DNA of 64,000 nt. Origin: a virus. The stretch spans positions 1 through 64,000 of IMG/VR virus record IMGVR_UViG_3300042938_001476; one strand, written 5' to 3'. The first letter of the stretch is position 1; every line of letters begins with the position of its first letter. Under the pieces are notes generated by a model that was not told the origin of the DNA, did not search any database, and was given only the letters and a program-made list of their open reading frames with translations. This document shows positions 11,303 to 50,044 of this stretch, one piece after another. A program made the translations under genes and the position numbers.

Positions 11303-14300
11303 ATGGGACTTTTTGATGATATTCTTGAAGAGGAGGGAATGGTTGAGCCGCCCCCTCAAAAACAAAGCGCAATCCGCAAGGGGGGATTATTTGATGACAT
11401 TCTTGAAGAAGAAGGAATGCTTGCAGAAGATCAATCGCAATTTGATGCAGATTACTTTACTCCAAAACCACTAAAGACGGAGAAGAAAGAATTACCAGAA
11501 GGACAAAGCGTATTTCGCCAGGTAGCAGATGTTCCGCTTGGCGTTGCCCGTGGTGGCGTTATTGGCATCAAGATGATGACTGATATTTTGGGTGCTGATA
11601 ATCCAGTGTCAAAATCATTGGCCGGAGTTGAGGGATACATGGCTGATTTGATGTCCGCTCAAGCCAAGGAAGACCAACAAGAGATCGCTCGCATTATGAA
11701 GGATGCCGAGGATAAAGGATTTGGAGAGCAAGTTAAAGCTGGCATTAAAGCATTCAGCATCGCTCCAGTTGACATTATGTCTCAAGCGTTGGGAACAATG
11801 GCTCCGGTTCTTGCTACTGGTCTTGCTGGAGGTGCTGCTAAACTTGGAGCATTGGGTATTAGGGGGCTTCAACTTGGTGTTGGTGCTGGAATGGGTGCTG
11901 GCATGATTAAAGGTGAGATTTACAATGAGGTTAAAAACGAACTCATTAACTCTGGAACTCCAGAGGAAGTTGCAGAAAAAGCTGCTGTTGATGCTCAAGC
12001 ATACGGAGGAAAAAACCTGGATCAGATTCTACTTGGAGCAGGACTTGGCGCAGCATCTACTTTGGGGGCTGAAGGAATTATTACCAGAATCTTGACCAAG
12101 CAAGGCAAGGCTTCTACCGCAGGACTTATATCTCGCACATTGAAGGGTGGCATTACAGAAGCTATTCCAGAAGGTTTTCAAGCTGCACAAGAACAACTTG
12201 CTAAAAATGTCGCGTTGCAGAGGGAGGGTTTTGATGTTGATCCATCCCGTGGTGTTGTTGCTGCCGCTACAATGGAAGCTATAGCTGGTGCGCCATTAGG
12301 AGGAATTGCTGGTGCTGTTGAACGACCAGCTAAAGTTAAGACCCTTGAAGAGGAAAAATTTGAGCAGACCAATGAGATTGCAAGAAAGGTTGCTGAAAGC
12401 GGTGCGCCACTTACTGCATCCGCGCTTCAAGACAAAGCTGCCGCTAATCTAAATCAAGATGAGCTTGCAAGAAAACTTGACGAAGAACTTTCCCTTACTG
12501 CCGTAAAGCCAACCGCAGCATCTCCAACGGCAATCCCTACAAAGGATGATTATGTTGCAAGGTATTCTGCTATTGCACAGGCAGCGCCAGAAGAGATTAC
12601 AAGAGCAGAACAATCATTCACAAACGAACTTGCCACTGCTGATACAGAAGAGAAGCGTATCAACGCACAGAACGCATTGGACGCAATCAAAGAAGTAAAG
12701 GCAGTTGGGATTACTCCTGCTGCACAACCCGTAACTCCGGTTACACAACAACCAACAATAGATGCCGCTCAAGAAATCATCCAGCAACAAGGCGTTCGTC
12801 AAGAACCTCAAGACGGAACTCAAGTCGGGGCGACCCCAGAAGCAAGCGTTAGCGATAGCGTACTCGGTGCAGAAGGAATCCAAGAAGAAGGGCAAGTAGA
12901 TTCTACAATATTTGATTTGCAGTCTGTCGCGAATAACACGGCAACTCGCGAACAGATTTCGTCTCTGTCGCTTTCTGGACTTGTAGACATCCGTAAGGGG
13001 CAAGCCATCATCAATGAGGACGGAGAGGGCATCCTGGCGCAAGCACAAGCCCCATTGCCAAAGCTCACGCCAGAAGAAAGAGCCGCTGAAGTTGAGGCTG
13101 CTCCAGCCACTCCGATTCCATCAGAACCTATCATTGGAGAAATTCCGCAAACTTCTCCGATAGTAGGCGAGGCTATTACAGAGACTACTCCAGTAGAACA
13201 AGTTGCGCCGCAAAAAACAATAACAGTATTTCATGCAACAGACACGCAACCTAAATCTGGTCAAAAATCTGGATACTATCCAGGCACATATACCGGAATA
13301 GATGAGGGTTTTGTTAAAGATTTTGGTAAGAACCTATTTTCAACTCAAGTTGATATAGATAAAATATACAAAGTAAGCAATGAAAGTGACTCGCAACAAC
13401 TTAAAAAGGATGCGCGAAACGCTGGATTTGATGTTCGTAATGCAAACGGAAATGGAGAAACACAATATCTTATATCAAATGGATATGAGGCAATACAGAG
13501 AGGGAAGGAAATAATTTTATTGTCTCCAGAAAAGTATAATTTTAGTAAAATCCAGAAACAACCAGCAGAACCTATCATCTTGGAAAAACCACAAACTTCC
13601 GAGATAGTAGGCGCTGAAACTCCTGCCATTGTTGAACAAGAACAAGTTGTGCCAGTAGAAAGAGCAATAGATGTAGCGAGAAAAACAAACTTTGCCGCAG
13701 CCACAACGAGGGAAGAAGCTGGAGATATAGGAAGAAATCTTGCGAGCCAAGACCCTAATTTACCTCCATTACCTCCACAGCAATTTGAAGTTCTTGAAAG
13801 TATATCAAATTTCCAAAACAGAAAGGGTTACAATCCAGATGTATTAACTGAAGAGTTGATTAATGAGGCTCGAAATAACGGATTTATTACTGGAAAGCAA
13901 CTTGGCAAAATTAAATTTACTGAAACCGGAAGAAATCAATTAAGGGAATGGTCTGATCAAGCAAGAGAGAGAAGCCTTGCACAAAGCGCATTGAGCGACG
14001 AGATTAGCGATATTGCCGTATCTCAATGGGATGCAGCAAATGATCCAACTTCAGCGGCAGCAATGGCGGCACAAACCGCTACACCTCCCGCACCAGTCAC
14101 CGAGCAAGCTGCACCAGCAGAAGCTCCCGCGCCAGAGGTTGCGCCTATCCAGCGTGATGTCACGAAGCCAGAGCAGATGACTCCAGGGGAGCGTGGAATT
14201 CAAGGTCACAAATTAGTTATTGAACAAGCAAGGCAAGACCTTGAGTTAGCAAAAACAGGTCAAACATTTGGATTTAGCGGAGGTCAAACTTACAAATCAA

Positions 14301-17300
14301 AAGCTGCTGCTATTAAAGATACTAAAAATACTTTTGAACGGGTGTCTCAACCCACTGAGGCGGACATTAAAAGAGGTGCATCAGATCACTACGGGGAAAT
14401 AAATAGGGCTGTTTCAGACAGCAGGCCAGTCTCTATAGATGCCGTTGAAGTTTACGGAGTTACTCTTCCAGAAGGATATGCCAAGCAAGGAGACCTATAT
14501 GTTTACCAACCCACCCCCGCAGTATCGGAAACAATAACAGAGCCAGCACAAGCCGCCGCTCCAGCACAACCTACAGAGTTTGGATTTGTTAAAGACATTG
14601 ATAGCACAAGAGAAAATATTAAGAAAAACCTAATTCGTTTTGCATCCGGCATGAGTGGATTGAGTGATATGCGTCGAGGATCATACGCTCGCGCTGGACA
14701 TAGGAATTATGGCGTTGGTGCTGTTGCTGGTCTTCTTTCAAAGAATACAACAAATGAACTTGCAGACCGAATTATTAATTTAGATGTCCATACATTTATT
14801 GATTCTGGAGCATTTGGTCATTTCATAAAAGAACAAAAATTAAAACTTGAAGGCAAAACACTTCCTCCATTAAATTTTGATAAAATACTTGCTAAATATG
14901 ATTTAATTATTGATGAAATAAATAATGCAAATTCCGTTGAAAGAGATGATTATCCTCGTCCATTAATTGTCACTCCTGACAAATTGGGAGATCAAAATGA
15001 ATCACTTAATTTAACTGAAAAATACAAAAATTGGATTGCTGCAAGAATTGAATTCAATGATGCAATACCAATTATTCCAATTCCACTTGGTAAATTAACT
15101 TTGCCGCAAGCGTATAACAGAATAGTTGAAATACTTAAAACAAATACCATTGGAGCAGAAATTAATCCTAATAAGTTTATAGTTGGTATCCCATCAAATG
15201 CAACCGCTGTAAGTAAGGAAGACCTTGCTAATTTTTTACAAGAAACAAAACATCCTCGTATTCATTTTCTTGGAGCGGCAGCAGATAGTAAAATCGCTCC
15301 ACTTATTGATGTTGTGGCTAAAGTTTCTCCAGACACATTAGTAACCGCTGATGCAAGTCCAGTTAGGTCAAAAATTGCTAATGCTAAAAAGGAAGGGAAA
15401 ACCAGAGATGCAGCAACTTTTGATGCACTATATCAAGAAGATGATCCTAATGTCATATTGGATTCAATAGGTAAAAATCCAGAGCAATTAACTCCAACAG
15501 AGCCGGAAATTATTGCTCCAACAACTCAACCGGAAAGCATCGCAGTAGGCAACCGCATCAAGTTTGACAATAGTCCACAGACCTACACCATCGAAGAAGT
15601 AATCCCGCAGACGGCAAAAGATCAAGAGTTGGAAGAGAAATACTACTCTGTGAAGAACGAGCGAACAGGCGAGGTTCAGGTAGTAGAGGAAAGAGATTTG
15701 AAGAAAGTTGGCGGGAAAAAAGTGCGGAAGATGGCGGTTGCAACAAAACTTTCTGATTCTTTAGATTCTGGTGAATTCAATTCCGCACAAGCATTAGTTG
15801 ATCAAGGAACAACAATGGATCGCGAAACATTTATTCGTTCCATTACTCCATCCGCAACACAACGAGCGACCACAATTCATACAAGACTTGAAAAAGATGG
15901 TGTAATTTCAAAAGAAGAGTTTACTGATGGAATGGGACTTGTCTATGGAGACGGACGAGGGGCAGCATCGTCATATCTTGGAGGTCAGTCTTATGAGCCA
16001 TTCCCGCCTGCTGGTTTTACTCCAGACTACACTGGTGATCGTGTAGAGGGAAAGGGAGATGCGATTGATGGCAAGTTTAGCACAATTCTTAATACATTTG
16101 TTCTTAATGTAGTTGATCCACAAACTCGCGCATTCATTGTAAAAGACATAGCAAACCTGCTTCAAAATGGAGGAAGGGCTGTATTTGTTACCCGTGGATC
16201 AGATGTTGCAAACTCAAAAGCCTTGGTATCATTTGCTCCGCTTGAGCGCATTCAAAGATCAGAAGGTAAGCTAACTTATCAAAAAGGATTCACTCAATCA
16301 GAACTGATCAAGTATCTTAAAGAAACGCTTGGTGATGGATTTTCTGTTAAAGGTTTGCGCGGAGGAACCGCAAGCGATATTCGTGTGGAGGTAATTAAGA
16401 ATACTGATGCGGAATTGAATAATCCTCCAATAACTCAAGACATTCGGCTGCAAGCGGTAGAACTTAAAAACGAAGAGATAGTAACGCCAATCCCAGAAGC
16501 TAATCGCTACACATACGAAGAAGCTGTAAGGCTGGTTGACTCATACTTCGACAAAGAAGGAATACCGGAAGGCGTAGTTATTGTAAACAATACTACCGAT
16601 AAAGACCTTGAGATGAAGGCAGGGTATTTCGTGAATCGTGGGCAGATCGTTATCAACCTCGCATATATCGCTAAAGGTGAGAACCTATCTGACATTATCT
16701 CTCACGAACTTGGTCACTACATTTTTGGTGATCCCCAGTTCCAAGCTGACTTTAAATCATTCTGGGAAGCAATGACACCAGAAGAGCAGGCTGAAGCTGA
16801 TAGGCTAATAAACCAATTTTACAACAAAGAGACTGGTGCGGTGCAGATGGAAGAGAAGCAAGTCCGTGCATTCTTGCAGTTGATCCAGGATAGCAATGCT
16901 CAACCGAAGTGGAGGCAACTTCTGGACAGCATTAAGCGTTGGATTAACGAGAAACTTGGAACTAACTTCCAAGTAACTGACGGAGGCGCATTGGCAGTCC
17001 TTGCTGCCGCGCACAAGCGATTCAAGAGTGGTGAGCGCATCATCCGTGAGATTGATTCTGGTGTGCTTAAAATGGCAGCAGAGCCTCGCCGTGAGCAAGT
17101 AGCAGGCAAACCGCGTGGAGACATTATCACAACTCCAGAAGGTATCATCGAGCAAACCAACGAAGTATTGCGTAACAAGTTCTTCGACGGATCGGTAGTC
17201 TCTGACGAGAACACAAGTGCTGCATGGGACTACATAGAGCAATTACTGGATATTAAGTCCGGTGCAGCTTATGATCTTGCGGGACAGATTAACAATGTTG

Positions 17301-20300
17301 TAGATCAAGAAACGAATTCTAAAACAAGAATGGGAGCGGGATTGTTTTCTGTATCATTGACTAACTACGCTGCAAAACTGTCGGCTCAAGGTGATAACGC
17401 AATGATCTCCTATCTTGTTCGTAGAAATAATAGGATGCCAACCGATAATCGCGGAGGCACTGCAACAGATGCCGGAAGGGTCTTGAGAGGCAAACGGGAA
17501 TACGACATTGATGGATATCACACCATAATGACTGAACATGAGTCTAAAGTTGAGAGAACAGCGGCTACACTATTTGGAACAGGTAAGCCAAGCAAACAAC
17601 AAGTTGCTGCCGTTGATGCTGCTATTGAAGCATCAGAAGACACATCTATTGGAAATCCAGAGGATGTTGCTGGCGAAGTTGAAAAGGTAGAGAAGAGAAC
17701 TGGTCGAAAAGTCATCAAGAAAATTGAAGACAAGATCAAAGAATCAACTGAACCAAAGAAAGAAGAGCTTCTTATCTCATTTGAGAATTTAGATGCAGAT
17801 AGAAAAATCAAAGGAATTACGCTTAAATACAATCCACAGAAGGTAAATGTAGCAAAAAACATTAAAGATTTTATTATCGGCAAGATGGTTGACTATAGGA
17901 AAACGCTTATTAACCAAGGCGCAAGCGGACTTGAATCTACATTCTGGCAGACGATGAGTGACAATGAGAATAAGCCTGGCCCACTTGGGGAAATTGATCA
18001 GGCGCAAAACAACGAACTTGCAAAGATTGTTCAGAAGACGCTGATTGATCTTGGACTCAAAGGTGAACCCCCTAATACCAAGATGACAGACATTGAGAAG
18101 GTTGCATCTATTTTGAACAAGCAGAAGTTGAGTGATGAGAAAAGACTTGAAGCTGATAGCAGGATTGTTGAGGAAATTGAACGCAGAAGAGAAAGTGATC
18201 TTGCGTCTGGTTATACGCCGGAAGTTGTAAACGCAAAGTATGACATTATTCTTGATGCGTGGAATCAATCAATGAGCAGACAGCTTAATATGCCTGTTAG
18301 CGACAATATGCTTCAGCGTCTTATTAGTTCCGAACTAAAAGAGCAAAACATAAATATTAGCAATTTAATTGAAGAGGTTGACGGAAAAGTAGTAGTAAAA
18401 ACAAAACAAGGAATTGTTGATTCTATTATTCGCAAAATTTACAAGGTTTCTAAAGAGTCTGAAACTGGAATTGAGATGGACGAAAACTACGATGGTCTTA
18501 AAGGCTATCTTGAGCAAACGCTGGATAATATGTATGCGCGGCAAATTGAAAAGAAGAATGCCGCATATGCAAAGCGCCAGGCTAAAATATCATTGCGTAA
18601 CAATGTTGAAGGGCAGGCTCAGTCAATCATCGATCAACTTGCCGATCAACTGTCCGATACTCCAGCATTCCCAGAAAAACAAGAAAATCAAGTAAAGGCT
18701 ATTGTTCAACAAGACCTAAGGCAGAGGCCGGACATGAAGCGCAAGCAACCATGGACGAGTCAACTCACAGCTAAACTCATGCAGGCAGGCGTAAGTGAAG
18801 TACAGGCTCAAACAATCTCTGATCTTGTCTGGAGACAGCATGAGATCAAGACAATGGATCGTGAGCTTAAAGAGCTTGAGACGGCAGCAGAGAAGGGTTC
18901 TCTTGCAGTCATTATCCAACGCATTAAAGATACACCGCTTGAGGATCAACAGAAGCCGGAATGGATGCAGGGCGTAATTCGTGAATACCTGATTGAAGCA
19001 GGGTTATCAAGCCAAGCCGCAGATACCGCTGCAAGGCTATATGAGAGCGTTATTGCTGAAAGGTTCGCAGAAGCCAAGCAGAAGGCATTTGAAGACACTC
19101 TGGCTAAGTCTGCGCCATGGAATAACTATCTTTCCAGAAACGCTCAACTTGGTAAGAATGCGCTGAAGAAAATTCAAGATGCAATCAGAACCGGAGTCCT
19201 TGATCCAACCCAAACCACAGAAGGTATTATTGCAAAAGAAAATGGGTGGTCTGGATTCAGTAAGGAACAACTTACGCGCATTGTTCAGTTGGATGGAATT
19301 CTTTATGATAAGAATTCGGATCAAGTTACTAAAGCGGAAGCGATGTCTGAACTTAACAAGATTATCGTTAAGGCAAAGATGCCAGTTAGGTTTAAGGATG
19401 CAATCTCTGCTTTTTATGTCGGTCAAGCATTGATGGGTATTCCAACATTCACCGTTAACATTGCTTCACCTACATTTTTTGCAATCCGCAACTTTTCTAT
19501 AGATATTGCTAAATATGCTGTTACCGATCCCAAAATGATTCCGGTTGCGTTTCAGAGTTTTATTAACTCATTTAAGAGTCTATATGACAACACTATGTAT
19601 GCATTTAAAAATCAGATTTATATGTCTGGTGAAATTGAATACATGCAAGGTCAAAATATCCTTAGTGAGTTATTTGACAAGGGTAAGGCTCAGTGGGCTA
19701 AAGGTGACTATGCCAACGGAATGGGGAATATGCTTGTTGGAACAAGCCAAATTACTGGCAGAATCCTTTCATCCCTTGACCAGGGCGCAATTGAAATGAT
19801 GCAAAGTCAAAACATTACAAGATATGTAATTGAGGCAATGTCTGGTAACAAAAAAATCTCAAAAGATAAACGCAGTGAAATCGTTAATATTGCAATTAGT
19901 GGGCGCAGGAAAATTAAACAAGACCTAATAGCATCTGGAATGGCTCCTGATAGGGCTGGAGTTCTTGCTGAATTAAAGGTTAGAGATGAACTAATGGCAT
20001 CACTTTCTGAATTTGGAATTAAAGGAACTGATGTCCTCAATGCCTCTATAAACGATGCGCTTCAATCCGTTGGACGCAATCGCGCCATTACGATAAATTC
20101 ACTTACTAAAGAACAAAACAATTTGAGGGATGCGGGAATTCTGTCTGGTATTCCAATTGGATTCCTTGAGGGTGTTGCTCAATGGGCAAATAAAGGAAAT
20201 CAATCTCAACAGGTTTTTGCTAAAATGATTTATGGATTTGCACTTGTTCCAGCCCGTGTATTTTCAACCGCATTATGGTTTAGCCCCATTGGATTTGTTA

Positions 20301-21406
20301 GGCTTGGAGTTGATGCAGCAATAAAAAGGGGAGGTGGCGAGTCCCGTTATGCCTTATCACTTGCAACAGAATTTCAACAAAAGCAAAGACTTATTGAAGC
20401 TATAGCCGGAACTGCTCTTTTAGTTGGGTTAAGTTCTTTGCTTTCAAGTTCAACTGATGACGATGAAGAAAAGCCATTTAAAATTGTAGTTACAGGAAAT
20501 GGCCCAGATTACAATACAGACAGGCAATACCATGATTCTTGGCACAAGAAATATAAACCACACACAACTCACATTATTATAGGTGGACTAAACATCCCAA
20601 TTAATATTGGACGAGGTGGAGAGGCTATATCAATTCCCCTTATATTTTTGGGCGCTCAAGATGATGCAAGAATTAAGGAGAAGCTGAATCAAGCAAGGAA
20701 ATCTCCGGCAGATTTAGAAATGGCAGCGGAAGTTTTAGGTTCAGCATTTTACTCTTTCTCTAATAGAGGCCCGTTTGCTGCATTTACAAAGCCTTTGTTT
20801 GATGCAAAGAAGCCAGACAAAGTTGTTCCTAATTTGGTTAGCCAAATAGGATACTTTGGAAAAACATTTATTCCAATTGTTGGAACTTCTCTTGCAAGAA
20901 ATATATCTGATTTTATTAATGACCCAATTGATAAGTCCTCCATTCAAGGTGCTATTTATTCTAATATGCCAATTGTTGGGCCTATGATTGGAACGAAGGC
21001 ACTTAATGCTTTTGGGCAACCAATCAGAGCAGACGATTGGGGCGATAGATTATTTAAACTTGGCGCTCCTGTTGTAATGTCGTTTCCTAAAAACACACCT
21101 GAAAATGAGCTTAATGAATTAGTTCTTAAAAAAGGCGATGGCCCACCAATTCCAACCAGAATAAATGCTCAAAAGAAATTTGAGGAGCCGCTAACGGATA
21201 AAGAGTTTGAGATATATGTCCGTGAGTATGGGAGGGTTGTATCTGACAAGATGTTTAAAAATCGAAAGAGGCTTGAAGATATGCAGGCAAAGAACTATAC
21301 TAAAGAGCTTGATAAATATGTTAACGGATATTCAATTGATGGAGTTGAAATTCCAGGGGCTTCCGATATGGCTGCTCGCGCAGTAAAAAGATCAAGGAAC
21401 GAATGA
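11303..21406 (+). CDS. Giant polyvalent internal virion protein
   Basis: 3,367 residues, the largest gene in the window. Order seen: a duplicated GLFDDILEEEGM motif (2-13 and 28-39); a Gly/Ala-rich, membrane-active-looking segment (~110-300); Pro/Ala linkers; an ADP-ribosyltransferase-like start with VFHATD (~640); a TIM-barrel-like region with FIDSGAF (~1165-1171) resembling tRNA-guanine or DNA transglycosylases; a methyltransferase-like domain with VYGDGRGAASSYLG (1547-1560) and FVLNVV (~1597); a zincin HELGH (1801-1805); long helical regions; and hydrophobic segments near 2702-2732 and 3030-3050. This matches the polyvalent proteins that phages inject with their DNA. Domain calls after the zincin are uncertain; the zincin and methyltransferase are the firmest. 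Confidence 0.75.
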   Translation: MGLFDDILEEEGMVEPPPQKQSAIRKGGLFDDILEEEGMLAEDQSQFDADYFTPKPLKTEKKELPEGQSVFRQVADVPLGVARGGVIGIKMMTDILGADNPVSKSLAGVEGYMADLMSAQAKEDQQEIARIMKDAEDKGFGEQVKAGIKAFSIAPVDIMSQALGTMAPVLATGLAGGAAKLGALGIRGLQLGVGAGMGAGMIKGEIYNEVKNELINSGTPEEVAEKAAVDAQAYGGKNLDQILLGAGLGAASTLGAEGIITRILTKQGKASTAGLISRTLKGGITEAIPEGFQAAQEQLAKNVALQREGFDVDPSRGVVAAATMEAIAGAPLGGIAGAVERPAKVKTLEEEKFEQTNEIARKVAESGAPLTASALQDKAAANLNQDELARKLDEELSLTAVKPTAASPTAIPTKDDYVARYSAIAQAAPEEITRAEQSFTNELATADTEEKRINAQNALDAIKEVKAVGITPAAQPVTPVTQQPTIDAAQEIIQQQGVRQEPQDGTQVGATPEASVSDSVLGAEGIQEEGQVDSTIFDLQSVANNTATREQISSLSLSGLVDIRKGQAIINEDGEGILAQAQAPLPKLTPEERAAEVEAAPATPIPSEPIIGEIPQTSPIVGEAITETTPVEQVAPQKTITVFHATDTQPKSGQKSGYYPGTYTGIDEGFVKDFGKNLFSTQVDIDKIYKVSNESDSQQLKKDARNAGFDVRNANGNGETQYLISNGYEAIQRGKEIILLSPEKYNFSKIQKQPAEPIILEKPQTSEIVGAETPAIVEQEQVVPVERAIDVARKTNFAAATTREEAGDIGRNLASQDPNLPPLPPQQFEVLESISNFQNRKGYNPDVLTEELINEARNNGFITGKQLGKIKFTETGRNQLREWSDQARERSLAQSALSDEISDIAVSQWDAANDPTSAAAMAAQTATPPAPVTEQAAPAEAPAPEVAPIQRDVTKPEQMTPGERGIQGHKLVIEQARQDLELAKTGQTFGFSGGQTYKSKAAAIKDTKNTFERVSQPTEADIKRGASDHYGEINRAVSDSRPVSIDAVEVYGVTLPEGYAKQGDLYVYQPTPAVSETITEPAQAAAPAQPTEFGFVKDIDSTRENIKKNLIRFASGMSGLSDMRRGSYARAGHRNYGVGAVAGLLSKNTTNELADRIINLDVHTFIDSGAFGHFIKEQKLKLEGKTLPPLNFDKILAKYDLIIDEINNANSVERDDYPRPLIVTPDKLGDQNESLNLTEKYKNWIAARIEFNDAIPIIPIPLGKLTLPQAYNRIVEILKTNTIGAEINPNKFIVGIPSNATAVSKEDLANFLQETKHPRIHFLGAAADSKIAPLIDVVAKVSPDTLVTADASPVRSKIANAKKEGKTRDAATFDALYQEDDPNVILDSIGKNPEQLTPTEPEIIAPTTQPESIAVGNRIKFDNSPQTYTIEEVIPQTAKDQELEEKYYSVKNERTGEVQVVEERDLKKVGGKKVRKMAVATKLSDSLDSGEFNSAQALVDQGTTMDRETFIRSITPSATQRATTIHTRLEKDGVISKEEFTDGMGLVYGDGRGAASSYLGGQSYEPFPPAGFTPDYTGDRVEGKGDAIDGKFSTILNTFVLNVVDPQTRAFIVKDIANLLQNGGRAVFVTRGSDVANSKALVSFAPLERIQRSEGKLTYQKGFTQSELIKYLKETLGDGFSVKGLRGGTASDIRVEVIKNTDAELNNPPITQDIRLQAVELKNEEIVTPIPEANRYTYEEAVRLVDSYFDKEGIPEGVVIVNNTTDKDLEMKAGYFVNRGQIVINLAYIAKGENLSDIISHELGHYIFGDPQFQADFKSFWEAMTPEEQAEADRLINQFYNKETGAVQMEEKQVRAFLQLIQDSNAQPKWRQLLDSIKRWINEKLGTNFQVTDGGALAVLAAAHKRFKSGERIIREIDSGVLKMAAEPRREQVAGKPRGDIITTPEGIIEQTNEVLRNKFFDGSVVSDENTSAAWDYIEQLLDIKSGAAYDLAGQINNVVDQETNSKTRMGAGLFSVSLTNYAAKLSAQGDNAMISYLVRRNNRMPTDNRGGTATDAGRVLRGKREYDIDGYHTIMTEHESKVERTAATLFGTGKPSKQQVAAVDAAIEASEDTSIGNPEDVAGEVEKVEKRTGRKVIKKIEDKIKESTEPKKEELLISFENLDADRKIKGITLKYNPQKVNVAKNIKDFIIGKMVDYRKTLINQGASGLESTFWQTMSDNENKPGPLGEIDQAQNNELAKIVQKTLIDLGLKGEPPNTKMTDIEKVASILNKQKLSDEKRLEADSRIVEEIERRRESDLASGYTPEVVNAKYDIILDAWNQSMSRQLNMPVSDNMLQRLISSELKEQNINISNLIEEVDGKVVVKTKQGIVDSIIRKIYKVSKESETGIEMDENYDGLKGYLEQTLDNMYARQIEKKNAAYAKRQAKISLRNNVEGQAQSIIDQLADQLSDTPAFPEKQENQVKAIVQQDLRQRPDMKRKQPWTSQLTAKLMQAGVSEVQAQTISDLVWRQHEIKTMDRELKELETAAEKGSLAVIIQRIKDTPLEDQQKPEWMQGVIREYLIEAGLSSQAADTAARLYESVIAERFAEAKQKAFEDTLAKSAPWNNYLSRNAQLGKNALKKIQDAIRTGVLDPTQTTEGIIAKENGWSGFSKEQLTRIVQLDGILYDKNSDQVTKAEAMSELNKIIVKAKMPVRFKDAISAFYVGQALMGIPTFTVNIASPTFFAIRNFSIDIAKYAVTDPKMIPVAFQSFINSFKSLYDNTMYAFKNQIYMSGEIEYMQGQNILSELFDKGKAQWAKGDYANGMGNMLVGTSQITGRILSSLDQGAIEMMQSQNITRYVIEAMSGNKKISKDKRSEIVNIAISGRRKIKQDLIASGMAPDRAGVLAELKVRDELMASLSEFGIKGTDVLNASINDALQSVGRNRAITINSLTKEQNNLRDAGILSGIPIGFLEGVAQWANKGNQSQQVFAKMIYGFALVPARVFSTALWFSPIGFVRLGVDAAIKRGGGESRYALSLATEFQQKQRLIEAIAGTALLVGLSSLLSSSTDDDEEKPFKIVVTGNGPDYNTDRQYHDSWHKKYKPHTTHIIIGGLNIPINIGRGGEAISIPLIFLGAQDDARIKEKLNQARKSPADLEMAAEVLGSAFYSFSNRGPFAAFTKPLFDAKKPDKVVPNLVSQIGYFGKTFIPIVGTSLARNISDFINDPIDKSSIQGAIYSNMPIVGPMIGTKALNAFGQPIRADDWGDRLFKLGAPVVMSFPKNTPENELNELVLKKGDGPPIPTRINAQKKFEEPLTDKEFEIYVREYGRVVSDKMFKNRKRLEDMQAKNYTKELDKYVNGYSIDGVEIPGASDMAARAVKRSRNE

Positions 21407-31294: not shown

Positions 31295-32155
31295 ATGAAA
31301 GAAGAACTAAAAAAATCTCTTAAAGAGCTTTATAAAAAGAATCCATTTGCTGAAAAATTATCAGACAAGGAAGCATATTATCGCGCAGTAAACAAAGAGG
31401 CTTTTGAAGATTACCTAAAAAACAAGGTTGTTAGGGGTAATCCGAAGGGTAGTGAAAAGGGAGCATTTATGTTTGGCGGCAAATTAATGAAAAGGGGAAC
31501 CCCATTTCCCGCCTTTCAAAAGGGAAAAATTCTTGAGCAATATTTACCAAAATCTGGCGAGGGATATATTTTTGAATCAAAAAGGCCAATGGTAGCAAGG
31601 GGCGAAATAAACCCAGTTAGGGGTGGAACGCAATTAGGCGGGGGTCACTTTGCACATAGACCATACGATCCATTTACTGGAAGCACGGTTAAAGAATTAA
31701 ATGCAGCAGAAGTTCGTGCGTTTGAAGGTAAGCCTAATCCAATTATGGGATACAAAGAAGTTGGCAAGGGTTATCCTGCTGTTCAAGCAGCCAAACAATC
31801 TTTGGCAAGAACGGCAAGAGGTGTTGCAAAAGGCGTTGGCTCCGCTGCATTGGCTGGAGCCGCATCCGCTGCCGTAGAGCCTATTGCTGAAGCGGCAATG
31901 CAAAAATATGAAGAGACAATGGGATATGAAACTCCAGACCCTAAATCTACAGCCGGAAGATTACGCGCATTAACTATAGGGGGTGGGCCTCTTGCTGCCC
32001 CGTATGAGGTTGGAAAAGCAGCAACTGAACTTGTTACTGATATTATTCCGTCAGCAACACAACTTGCTTACGAAAAATTTATTGAATCTCCTGCAAGGGA
32101 GAAAAGAATAAAAGAGCGTACGCAGCAAAAAAAATCAGATAAAAAGAAATCTTAA
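31295..32155 (+). CDS. Hypothetical virion protein
   Basis: 286 residues. The N-terminal ~110 residues carry aromatic and basic positions (AYYRAVNKEAFEDYL, then VRGN and AFMFGG) that could be an enzyme fold, possibly ADP-ribosyltransferase-like. I cannot confirm this. An Ala/Gly-rich helical segment (~residues 165-205) follows, and the tail is strongly basic. It lies between two strong transcription features and may be an independently transcribed minor virion protein. Confidence 0.5.
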   Translation: MKEELKKSLKELYKKNPFAEKLSDKEAYYRAVNKEAFEDYLKNKVVRGNPKGSEKGAFMFGGKLMKRGTPFPAFQKGKILEQYLPKSGEGYIFESKRPMVARGEINPVRGGTQLGGGHFAHRPYDPFTGSTVKELNAAEVRAFEGKPNPIMGYKEVGKGYPAVQAAKQSLARTARGVAKGVGSAALAGAASAAVEPIAEAAMQKYEETMGYETPDPKSTAGRLRALTIGGGPLAAPYEVGKAATELVTDIIPSATQLAYEKFIESPAREKRIKERTQQKKSDKKKS

Positions 32156-32398
32156 TTATTGTTAAAAATAATGCTTGCTTATTTTAACAGCGTAACCTAT
32201 TTGTCGAAATGCAAGTTGTAAGACTTGTTTAAAAATCTTACATGGATCGCTGATTCCTTAACATCAGTAAATAAATTGAGCTTATAAATCCGAAAGGTCT
32301 TTGAGGTGGCTCACCAAAGAAAAATAACACAATTACATTTGGCAACTTAAAAGCTCTTGTAATTCACAACCAAACTTAAAATAGAAAGATAAAAAAAT
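32156..32398 (+). promoter_or_regulatory. Structured untranslated leader of the capsid gene
   Basis: 243 bp without a gene. Its RNA can form at least three hairpins: one with arms TGTAAGA/TCTTACA, one with CTGAT/ATCAG, and a long one at 32298-32320 (TCTTTG plus GGTG pairing CACC plus AAAGA). A degenerate palindrome lies at 32157-32171. Likely a promoter and stabilising leader for the highly expressed capsid protein. Promoter boxes could not be fixed. Confidence 0.4.
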
Positions 32399-47799: not shown

Positions 47800-47909
47800 A
47801 ATTTGAGATGCAATAACGTGGTATTGTGGCGGATTGAAACCCTTGGCAGGGCTTGATCTGGTTAGGAATAACGCCATCCTCGCAATCACATAAAACGAGG
47901 ACTCTCAAT

Positions 47910-47924
47910 TATTGTTAAACAATA
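47910..47924. promoter_or_regulatory. Palindromic element TATTGTTAAACAATA (perfect)
   Basis: Perfect copy inside the structured leader, flanked by CAAT and AGTTG that extend the pairing. It could be an operator within the leader DNA or a hairpin in its RNA. Confidence 0.55.
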
Positions 47925-48079
47925 GTTGACTCTGCACTCAGGCAGTGTAGTGTTCAATCCGCTGTAGGAATACAGCCATTCGCGTGAGAACGAATGCAAC
48001 ACAAGATTAAATTGAAACAATAAATATATCGATACCCTTCCGTAGATCATTCTCACCCGTCATTTCAACGGTCTTGTGC

Positions 48080-48102
48080 TACGGGAGGGGTCGTCCCTCG
48101 TA
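48080..48102 (+). promoter_or_regulatory. Hairpin masking the initiator ribosome site
   Basis: TACG (48080-48083) and AGGG pair with CCCT and CGTA (to 48102), with a two-base bulge; the SD-like GGGAGGGG lies within it. The ATG follows 2 nt later. This would hold translation low unless the stem is opened. Confidence 0.45.
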
Positions 48103-48104
48103 AT

Positions 48105-48971
48105 ATGAATGAGTCAAAAAAAGAATTTCGTGGAGTTTGGATTCGCGCAAGCCTTTGGAGGAGGAAAGACCTTACTTGGTTTGAAAAGTGTCTTATCGCA
48201 GAGATTGATTGTTTCGCTAACAATTGTTTTGCGAGCAATGCGTATCTTGCGGAAATGATGAATACAACAGAATCCAGGTTATCAAATGCATTGAGTAAGC
48301 TTCGCAGTATGGGGCTAATTATTGATGCTGGTTTCAATGGAAGGGTTCGTCAGATTTTGGTTGCTGATAATGTATCTTCAGACCCAAAAATCCATAATCC
48401 AACAGAGAAAATAATAAACAAAGACTTCACACAGGTGTTAACTCAGCCTTCACCTATATGTGAAGGCAGGATTCACACAGAGGTGAACATAGATACTAAT
48501 AGAGAACAAAGCATAGAAAATACCCCTATAATCCCCTCAAAGGGGATAGTGTCTGAATTTGAAACTTTCTACTCAACCTACCCTCGCAAGGTTTCCAAAA
48601 CCAATGCCGAGAAGGCATGGAAGAAACAGAGGTGTGTTCTCTCCGAAGTCATGCCATCCCTTCAAAAGCAAATGAAGCTCTGGACTGATCCTCAGTTTAT
48701 TCCCCACCCTGCGACATGGCTAAACGGAAGGCGCTGGGAAGACGAAACACCTAAATCAATACCATCACACCAGAACACATATAAAACACACTCTAACGCC
48801 AACCTCGCGCAAAAGAAGCGCAACTGGTATGACATCTGTGAAGAGCGTGGAGAGCGTGAAGCATTCAAAACTTGGGTCACAACGAACAGACCGGAGGAAT
48901 GGTGTGATTACCTTCCATCAATGGACACTCGTTGGTGGATCGAATTTTCTGATAGACCTGTAGAGTTTTAG
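48105..48971 (+). CDS. Replication initiator / helicase-loading type protein
   Basis: 288 residues. N-terminal winged-helix region (residues ~15-85) with SNAYLAEMMNTTESRLSNALSKL as the helix-turn-helix. A disordered linker (90-145) precedes the C-terminal part FETFYSTYPRKVSKTNAEKAWKK and PATWLNGRRWEDE, found at the end of phage replication initiators. It should bind the origin and help load the DnaB-type helicase encoded at 61969. Its expression is probably controlled by the folded leader. Confidence 0.7.
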   Translation: MNESKKEFRGVWIRASLWRRKDLTWFEKCLIAEIDCFANNCFASNAYLAEMMNTTESRLSNALSKLRSMGLIIDAGFNGRVRQILVADNVSSDPKIHNPTEKIINKDFTQVLTQPSPICEGRIHTEVNIDTNREQSIENTPIIPSKGIVSEFETFYSTYPRKVSKTNAEKAWKKQRCVLSEVMPSLQKQMKLWTDPQFIPHPATWLNGRRWEDETPKSIPSHQNTYKTHSNANLAQKKRNWYDICEERGEREAFKTWVTTNRPEEWCDYLPSMDTRWWIEFSDRPVEF

Positions 48972-49988: not shown

Positions 49989-50044
49989 AAAAAAAGAAAA
50001 CTTTTTATTGACCACAGATCAAAGATCACTATAATAAAGTTCGC

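Follow-up and report, generated by a model that had tools for sequence, protein, structure and literature searches.

What lies in the gap ahead of the replication initiator gene of a phage, and could it control the start of DNA copying as RNA? The DNA analysed here (hereafter the window, 64 kb) is a portion of a 68,965-base virus record, in which the initiator ORF precedes genes for an exonuclease and for an Erf-like annealing protein. A sequence-only reading of the gap had proposed a single folded leader, with a duplicated hairpin module, long-range pairings and a last hairpin hiding a ribosome-site-like run, and had suggested either translational control by an RNA switch or an origin structure.

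I drew 13 IMG/VR loci with the initiator protein as query, among which six close loci keep the gap upstream of the initiator, and collected further relatives with DNA patterns built from conserved stretches. The relatives are uncultivated metagenome contigs throughout. Chance matches were set aside (L021, L051, L052, L054, L057, L058, L060, L061, L074-L076 and L081, among others), as was a supposed second leader copy at 32133-32170, in which a palindrome-like stretch alone matches and the RNA does not.

Two structured RNAs in the gap

The gap does contain structured RNA, as had been proposed, but it holds two conserved elements rather than one, labeled M1 and M2 (Table 1), with an operator and a predicted promoter sitting between them, and several of the elements listed for the single leader are not conserved. 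In some relatives M1 is found away from M2, ahead of other genes, and in others M2 is found without M1 alongside; since each occurs without the other adjoining, they are treated as two elements. M1 is thus a second, independent leader-like RNA, which adjoins M2 by happenstance in this phage. Covariance models built for M1 and M2 (R1 and R2) matched 26 and 32 of 38 phage records, respectively, with a single copy of each per record in nearly all of them; M1 usually lies ahead of genes other than the replication operon. Of the 18 records chosen solely for M1 (G022-G039), 14 hold M2 too, an independent recovery of the latter.

This division accounts for the fate of three proposed features. The 10-bp stem 47829-47838/47953-47962 can form in the window, but is lost in most relatives; it is not a conserved part of either RNA, because it spans from M1 to M2 across the promoter, and its partner is absent where the two are apart. 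The duplicated two-hairpin module proved to be a chance-like match of 80%, whose copies belong to the unrelated M1 and M2. As for the GGAA loop that these copies were said to share, the M1 copy loses it in L002, L003 and L006, while the second is a genuine hairpin (hairpin A of M2) whose loop can be any GNRA.

Table 1. Features of the gap and its flanks, with positions in the window and the evidence for each.
Feature	Position	Strand	Evidence
RNA element M1, ~105 nt, pseudoknotted	47803-47908	+	alignment A3, covariation, model R1
M1 helix P1	47803-47808/47903-47908	+	A3
M1 helix P2	47818-47822/47873-47877	+	A3
M1 pseudoknot, UGUGG with P4 loop	47825-47829/47886-47890	+	A3; double change in L067
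M1 helix P3	47830-47835/47855-47860	+	A3
M1 helix P4	47878-47882/47896-47900	+	A3
Operator-like palindrome TTATTGTTAAACAATA (the window has about a dozen such sites)	47909-47924		same place before M2 promoter in relatives
Predicted sigma70-like promoter of replication operon (-35 TTGACT 47926-47931, 16-nt spacer, -10 TAGTGT 47948-47953)	47926-47953	+	predicted; constant spacing
RNA element M2, predicted entire 5' UTR of replication operon	47959-48104	+	R2 matches in 32/38 records; covariation
M2 hairpin A, GNRA tetraloop (GGAA here)	47961-47976	+	GNRA in 40/41 leaders and in 61/62 of type B
M2 hairpin B, loop bears strand b (GTGAGAA, 47984-47990)	47977-47996	+	column-pair scan, covariation, type B alignment
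M2 strand c, CACAAGA, pairs with c'	48000-48006	+	98.6% paired; two-sided changes in 4/6 pairs; swap test 0/2000
M2 strand d, CGATACCCTTCCGTAG, pairs with d'	48030-48045	+	two-sided changes in 8/8 pairs (d2) and 3/5 pairs (d1)
M2 strand b', TTCTCAC, pairs with b	48050-48056	+	100% paired, 23/23; two-sided changes in 5/7 pairs
M2 hairpin C, CCGTCATTTCAACGG	48057-48071	+	100% paired; U-A/A-U exchange
M2 strand c', TCTTGTG	48072-48078	+	covariation in A2
M2 strand d', CTACGGGAGGGGTCG, includes GGGAGGGG run, closes domain right before start codon	48079-48093	+	covariation; AUG spacing
Replication initiator, 288 aa, heads operon	48105-48971	+	phrog_270 replication initiation protein, E 3e-33

At the gathering threshold, Rfam 15 returned 0 matches in the whole window and in six relatives, and at a relaxed threshold the best sub-threshold match had an E-value of 0.46, which leaves the gap with no Rfam match. 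A sensitive BLAST search of cultured phages and plasmids gave no credible match to M1 or M2, and two exact patterns found none in bacterial and archaeal genomes, although diverged prophage copies could escape such patterns. A search of one open-access collection found no earlier description of either RNA, though one may have been published elsewhere. M1 and M2 represent two structured RNA families absent from Rfam, spread across a large group of uncultivated phages.

The fold of M2

M2 combines two local hairpins, A and B, with three helices whose strands run in the order b-c-d-b'-c'-d', such that every helix crosses both others. On the 3' strand of the domain b', hairpin C, c' and d' are contiguous. 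To my knowledge, three mutually crossing helices in one fold are rare among natural RNAs. The hairpin A loop is GAAA in 26 of 41 leaders, GAGA in 8, GGAA in 5 and GCAA in 1.

Covariation in homologues, on which the sequence-only reading had staked its leader, is strong for M2. In an alignment of 23 sequences (A2, 36 pairs), 92.5% of cells are paired versus 77.7% after shuffling, two-sided changes are seen in 26 of the 36 pairs versus 17.5, and the covariation score is 0.521 versus 0.230 (0/500 shuffles). The shuffle control ignores the relatedness of the sequences, whereas sliding the partners by 1-3 columns preserves it, and the score then falls to 0.10-0.15. When every pair of columns was scanned without bias for stacks that are paired yet varying, exactly the helices b/b', c/c' and d/d' came out. 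All three are backed by swap tests (for helix d, 14.1 bp for cognate partners against 8.3, 0/2000), and they are 90.8-100% paired, with covariation. Compensatory changes are well illustrated by L004, where helix b changes from GUGAGAA/UUCUCAC to GUAGAAA/UUUCUAC, and helix c from CACAAGA/UCUUGUG to UAGAAGA/UCUUCUA. Helices b and c had both been noticed in the sequence-only reading and hold in all or nearly all of the 23 sequences, with many two-sided changes in each; the longest covarying helix, d, which takes in the GGGAGGGG run and crosses both b and c, was missing from it.

A divergent subtype, labeled type B, was recovered at 44-75 bits and differs at most positions. When type B leaders were aligned alone, hairpins A and B and helices b/b' and d all reappeared. 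A broader pattern scan yielded 79 contig stretches that include 62 distinct leaders of type B; in this set the swap tests of b/b' and c/c' were matched by 0 of 2000 shuffles. The unpaired core of M2 is conserved as UUAAAUYRAAC.

Within the M2 helices, G-U pairs are far commoner than A-C mismatches, and the RNA is therefore that of the + strand. The folding energy of the whole gap is similar on the two strands (z = -3.2 on +, z = -2.6 on -), and is by itself indecisive, making the relatives necessary.

The last hairpin of the sequence-only reading, in which the GGGAGGGG G-run would be hidden by pairing with CCCUC so as to block the start, fared less well. It can be drawn in the window and formed in many leaders, but it is absent in L113, L114, L117 and L119, and its swap test is not significant (cognate 11.06 versus shuffled 10.65, 441/5000). 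Moreover, the majority of genes in the window lack a Shine-Dalgarno sequence, which makes a role of GGGAGGGG as a ribosome site doubtful. These results bear on the possibility that M2 is a ligand-binding riboswitch, with the G-run alternating between d/d' and this hairpin: the conserved unpaired core and the many leaders able to form the alternative would suit it, but with the swap test as it is, and four leaders lacking the hairpin, I consider it quite improbable.

Setting and possible role of M2

The -35 box of the predicted promoter lies 33-35 nt ahead of M2 in 38 of 41 leaders; in type B, measured to the GNRA loop, the distance is 41-43 nt in 61 of 61. A generic promoter scan of the window did not include the site among those listed. 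This constant spacing suggests that transcription should start at or beside hairpin A, and M2 would then make up the entire 5' UTR of this operon. At the other end, the fold is closed by a conserved GGCC/GCC, whose distance to the AUG is 8-10 nt in 33 of 41 leaders and likewise in 57 of the 62 type B leaders. In every relative the fold takes up the UTR between the predicted +1 and the AUG, with no conserved ORF inside.

The gene that follows is not constant. Several types of initiator head the operon, or an ORF of 84-106 aa followed by the initiator, and in two loci the first gene is unlike an initiator (an HNH-like gene in L056, another ORF in L064). The M2 fold stays the same while the N-terminal domain of the initiator is swapped. 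Because even an unrelated ORF can come first, none of the gene products stands out as the regulator.

The reading that I favour, and hold to be somewhat probable, is that M2 is a cis-acting structured 5' UTR governing translation initiation of the replication operon, and that it thereby probably gates the timing of phage DNA copying. Transcription from the operator-flanked promoter would begin at or beside hairpin A, and the nascent RNA would fold into the GNRA-capped hairpin, the second hairpin with its downstream-pairing loop, and the three interleaved helices. The last of these would end within the ribosome footprint, and the fold would control ribosome entry at the first replication gene; the effect on translation is presumed, as is its direction, from pairings, a constant geometry and a gene context that are observed. 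Proximity to the AUG is by itself weak support, since phage genomes are compact. Translational control is favoured because the UTR is fully occupied, the distance to the AUG is constant, and conservation is independent of the gene. Translational control, as suggested in the sequence-only reading, is the best-supported explanation; a ligand-driven switch has much less support. The position of M2 makes a concrete claim on RNA-level gating of the start of phage DNA replication, and, being independent of the gene that follows, M2 looks like a portable control module.

The same geometry bears on two other readings. M2 could be a 5' stability element, shielding the replication mRNA from exonucleases or host decay factors, and the capped hairpin at or beside the predicted start in nearly all leaders, together with the compact, multi-pseudoknotted fold, is consistent with this; any stable hairpin would serve, however, and the fixed AUG distance would be unexplained, making it a very unlikely explanation. 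Alternatively, M2 may be processed to a small RNA that acts in trans as a decoy or sponge for some protein of the host or the phage, with its gene position incidental. A single copy per genome in nearly all records and an exchangeable downstream gene would fit such a role, but M2 is always directly ahead of a start codon at near-constant spacing and no terminator is conserved at its 3' end, and I regard this too as very improbable.

It is also conceivable that M2 acts on RNA polymerase, as an RNA of the put or EAR kind, located where an early operon begins, that modifies the elongating enzyme and so allows readthrough of downstream terminators. The HK022 put RNA consists of two small hairpins. 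M2 shares with it, and with the EAR/epsC RNA, its place as a structured RNA in or near an operon leader, and the promoter geometry would fit the start of an early transcript; unlike them, it stands at a fixed distance from an AUG and matches no Rfam family. EAR/epsC RNA, for which a pseudoknot is predicted, lies in potential 5' UTRs (PMC2864571). That M2 begins at or near the predicted +1 and persists when a different gene comes first is compatible with an action on polymerase, as are several terminator-like sites farther downstream in the window. These are, however, in no clear excess (15 versus 10.4 in shuffled sequence, sd 3.6), a constant distance of 8-10 nt to the AUG is not needed for antitermination, and the fold is far larger and more knotted than put RNAs. 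I consider this possibility unlikely.

Known pseudoknotted leaders offer a closer comparison for translational control. In the leaders of ColIb-P9 repZ and IncL/M repA, a loop pairs near the initiator start, translation of a leader peptide opens the structure, and an antisense RNA is directed to the loop. Like these, M2 has a hairpin loop that forms a pseudoknot with a segment shortly ahead of the initiator gene; unlike them, it possesses three interleaved helices, is found in phages rather than plasmids, has no conserved leader peptide and shows no sequence relation. No minus-strand promoter-like site for a ColIb-P9-type antisense RNA was found in the M2 leader, including near 47990. For ColIb-P9 (IncI-alpha), the leader pseudoknot is described as the switch for repZ translation (work cited in PMC10724649).

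The triple pseudoknot of the dicistrovirus IGR IRES is reported to drive translation in E. coli through S1 (PMC9458429). M2 is likewise a compact domain of three mutually crossing helices directly before a start codon, but it is at the predicted 5' end rather than internal, uses AUG and has no homology to the IRES. Its helix order also differs from that of the IRES. By this analogy, M2 might be a phage counterpart of an IRES that recruits a ribosome, or sets it on a fixed AUG, with no need of a Shine-Dalgarno sequence, and it would then serve as a portable start module for any gene at the head of the replication operon; I consider this distinctly unlikely. In principle M2 resembles both the ColIb-P9 leader and the IGR IRES, but it belongs to neither. 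Another pseudoknotted RNA, the STAXI motif, lies close to genes of DNA-handling proteins (PMC2864571) and consists of a pseudoknot in two or three repeats. M2 is also pseudoknotted and near such genes, but occurs in single copy as one triply interleaved fold, with no Rfam match.

The palindrome ahead of the M2 promoter is TATTGTTNAACAATA in the window and TTATCGNNNNCGATAA in other phages. It is dispersed through the window (658, 8808, 13627, 18699, 27088, 40667, 41552, 46274, 47909, 51463 and 61969), with 23 strand matches versus 1.45 expected, and in G012, G021, G027 and G030 each strand matches TTATCGTTNNCGATAA 10-21 times. The pattern resembles a stoperator-type repressor system, with putative specificities that differ among phages and one site usually just upstream of the M2 promoter. 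The palindrome at 47909-47924, the AT-rich linker 48007-48034 and the adjoining initiator gene could together suggest that the region is a replication origin, or an RNA-primer structure working as DNA or an R-loop. However, the palindrome is scattered over whole genomes, helices that cross one another and contain + strand G-U pairs are a signature of RNA, and the fold is unchanged though the N-terminal domain of the initiator is replaced; the origin structure offered by the sequence-only reading is thus extremely unlikely. A near-perfect sigma70 promoter (TTGACC-16-TATAAT, 50008-50035, + strand) is found right before the Erf-like gene.

The M1 element

M1 forms a closed domain of four helices plus a pseudoknot, as seen in an alignment of 30 sequences (A3). 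Its covariation score is 0.225 versus 0.116 after shuffling (0/500), which is weaker evidence than for M2 because the M1 sequence is more conserved. The key support for the pseudoknot is a double change to UGCGG/CCGCA in L067. Helix P1 scores low in A3 (71.7% paired), owing to a one-column shift between two sequence types, both of which are able to form it.

The distance from M1 to the next ORF ranges from 8 to ~200 nt, unlike the near-constant spacing between M2 and its AUG. In many relatives M1 lies 8-29 nt ahead of a start codon, most often that of a phrog_3704 protein gene. In L086, L089 and L099 the operator follows M1, and in L086 and L089 so do repeats such as ACATAAGACATTAGCATAAGACATTAG, with no nearby ORF. 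The 67,805-base record G005 (locus L044) has a 71-aa ORF with CxxC-like motifs between M1 and the operator and M2 promoter, which is absent in the window; the adjacency of M1 and M2 in the window may reflect the loss of such an intervening ORF.

Rearrangements are also seen on the other side of M1. In G005, an HNH-like insertion splits the methyltransferase gene upstream of M1, and the opposite contig end bears a second copy of the gene end and of the beginning of M1 (contig positions 66250-67805 and 1-400). In L002, ~1.2 kb of extra genes (1473-2701), one of them QueD-like by eye, are inserted at the 5' edge of M1. Elsewhere in the window, positions 11303-21406 form a single ORF of 3367 aa.
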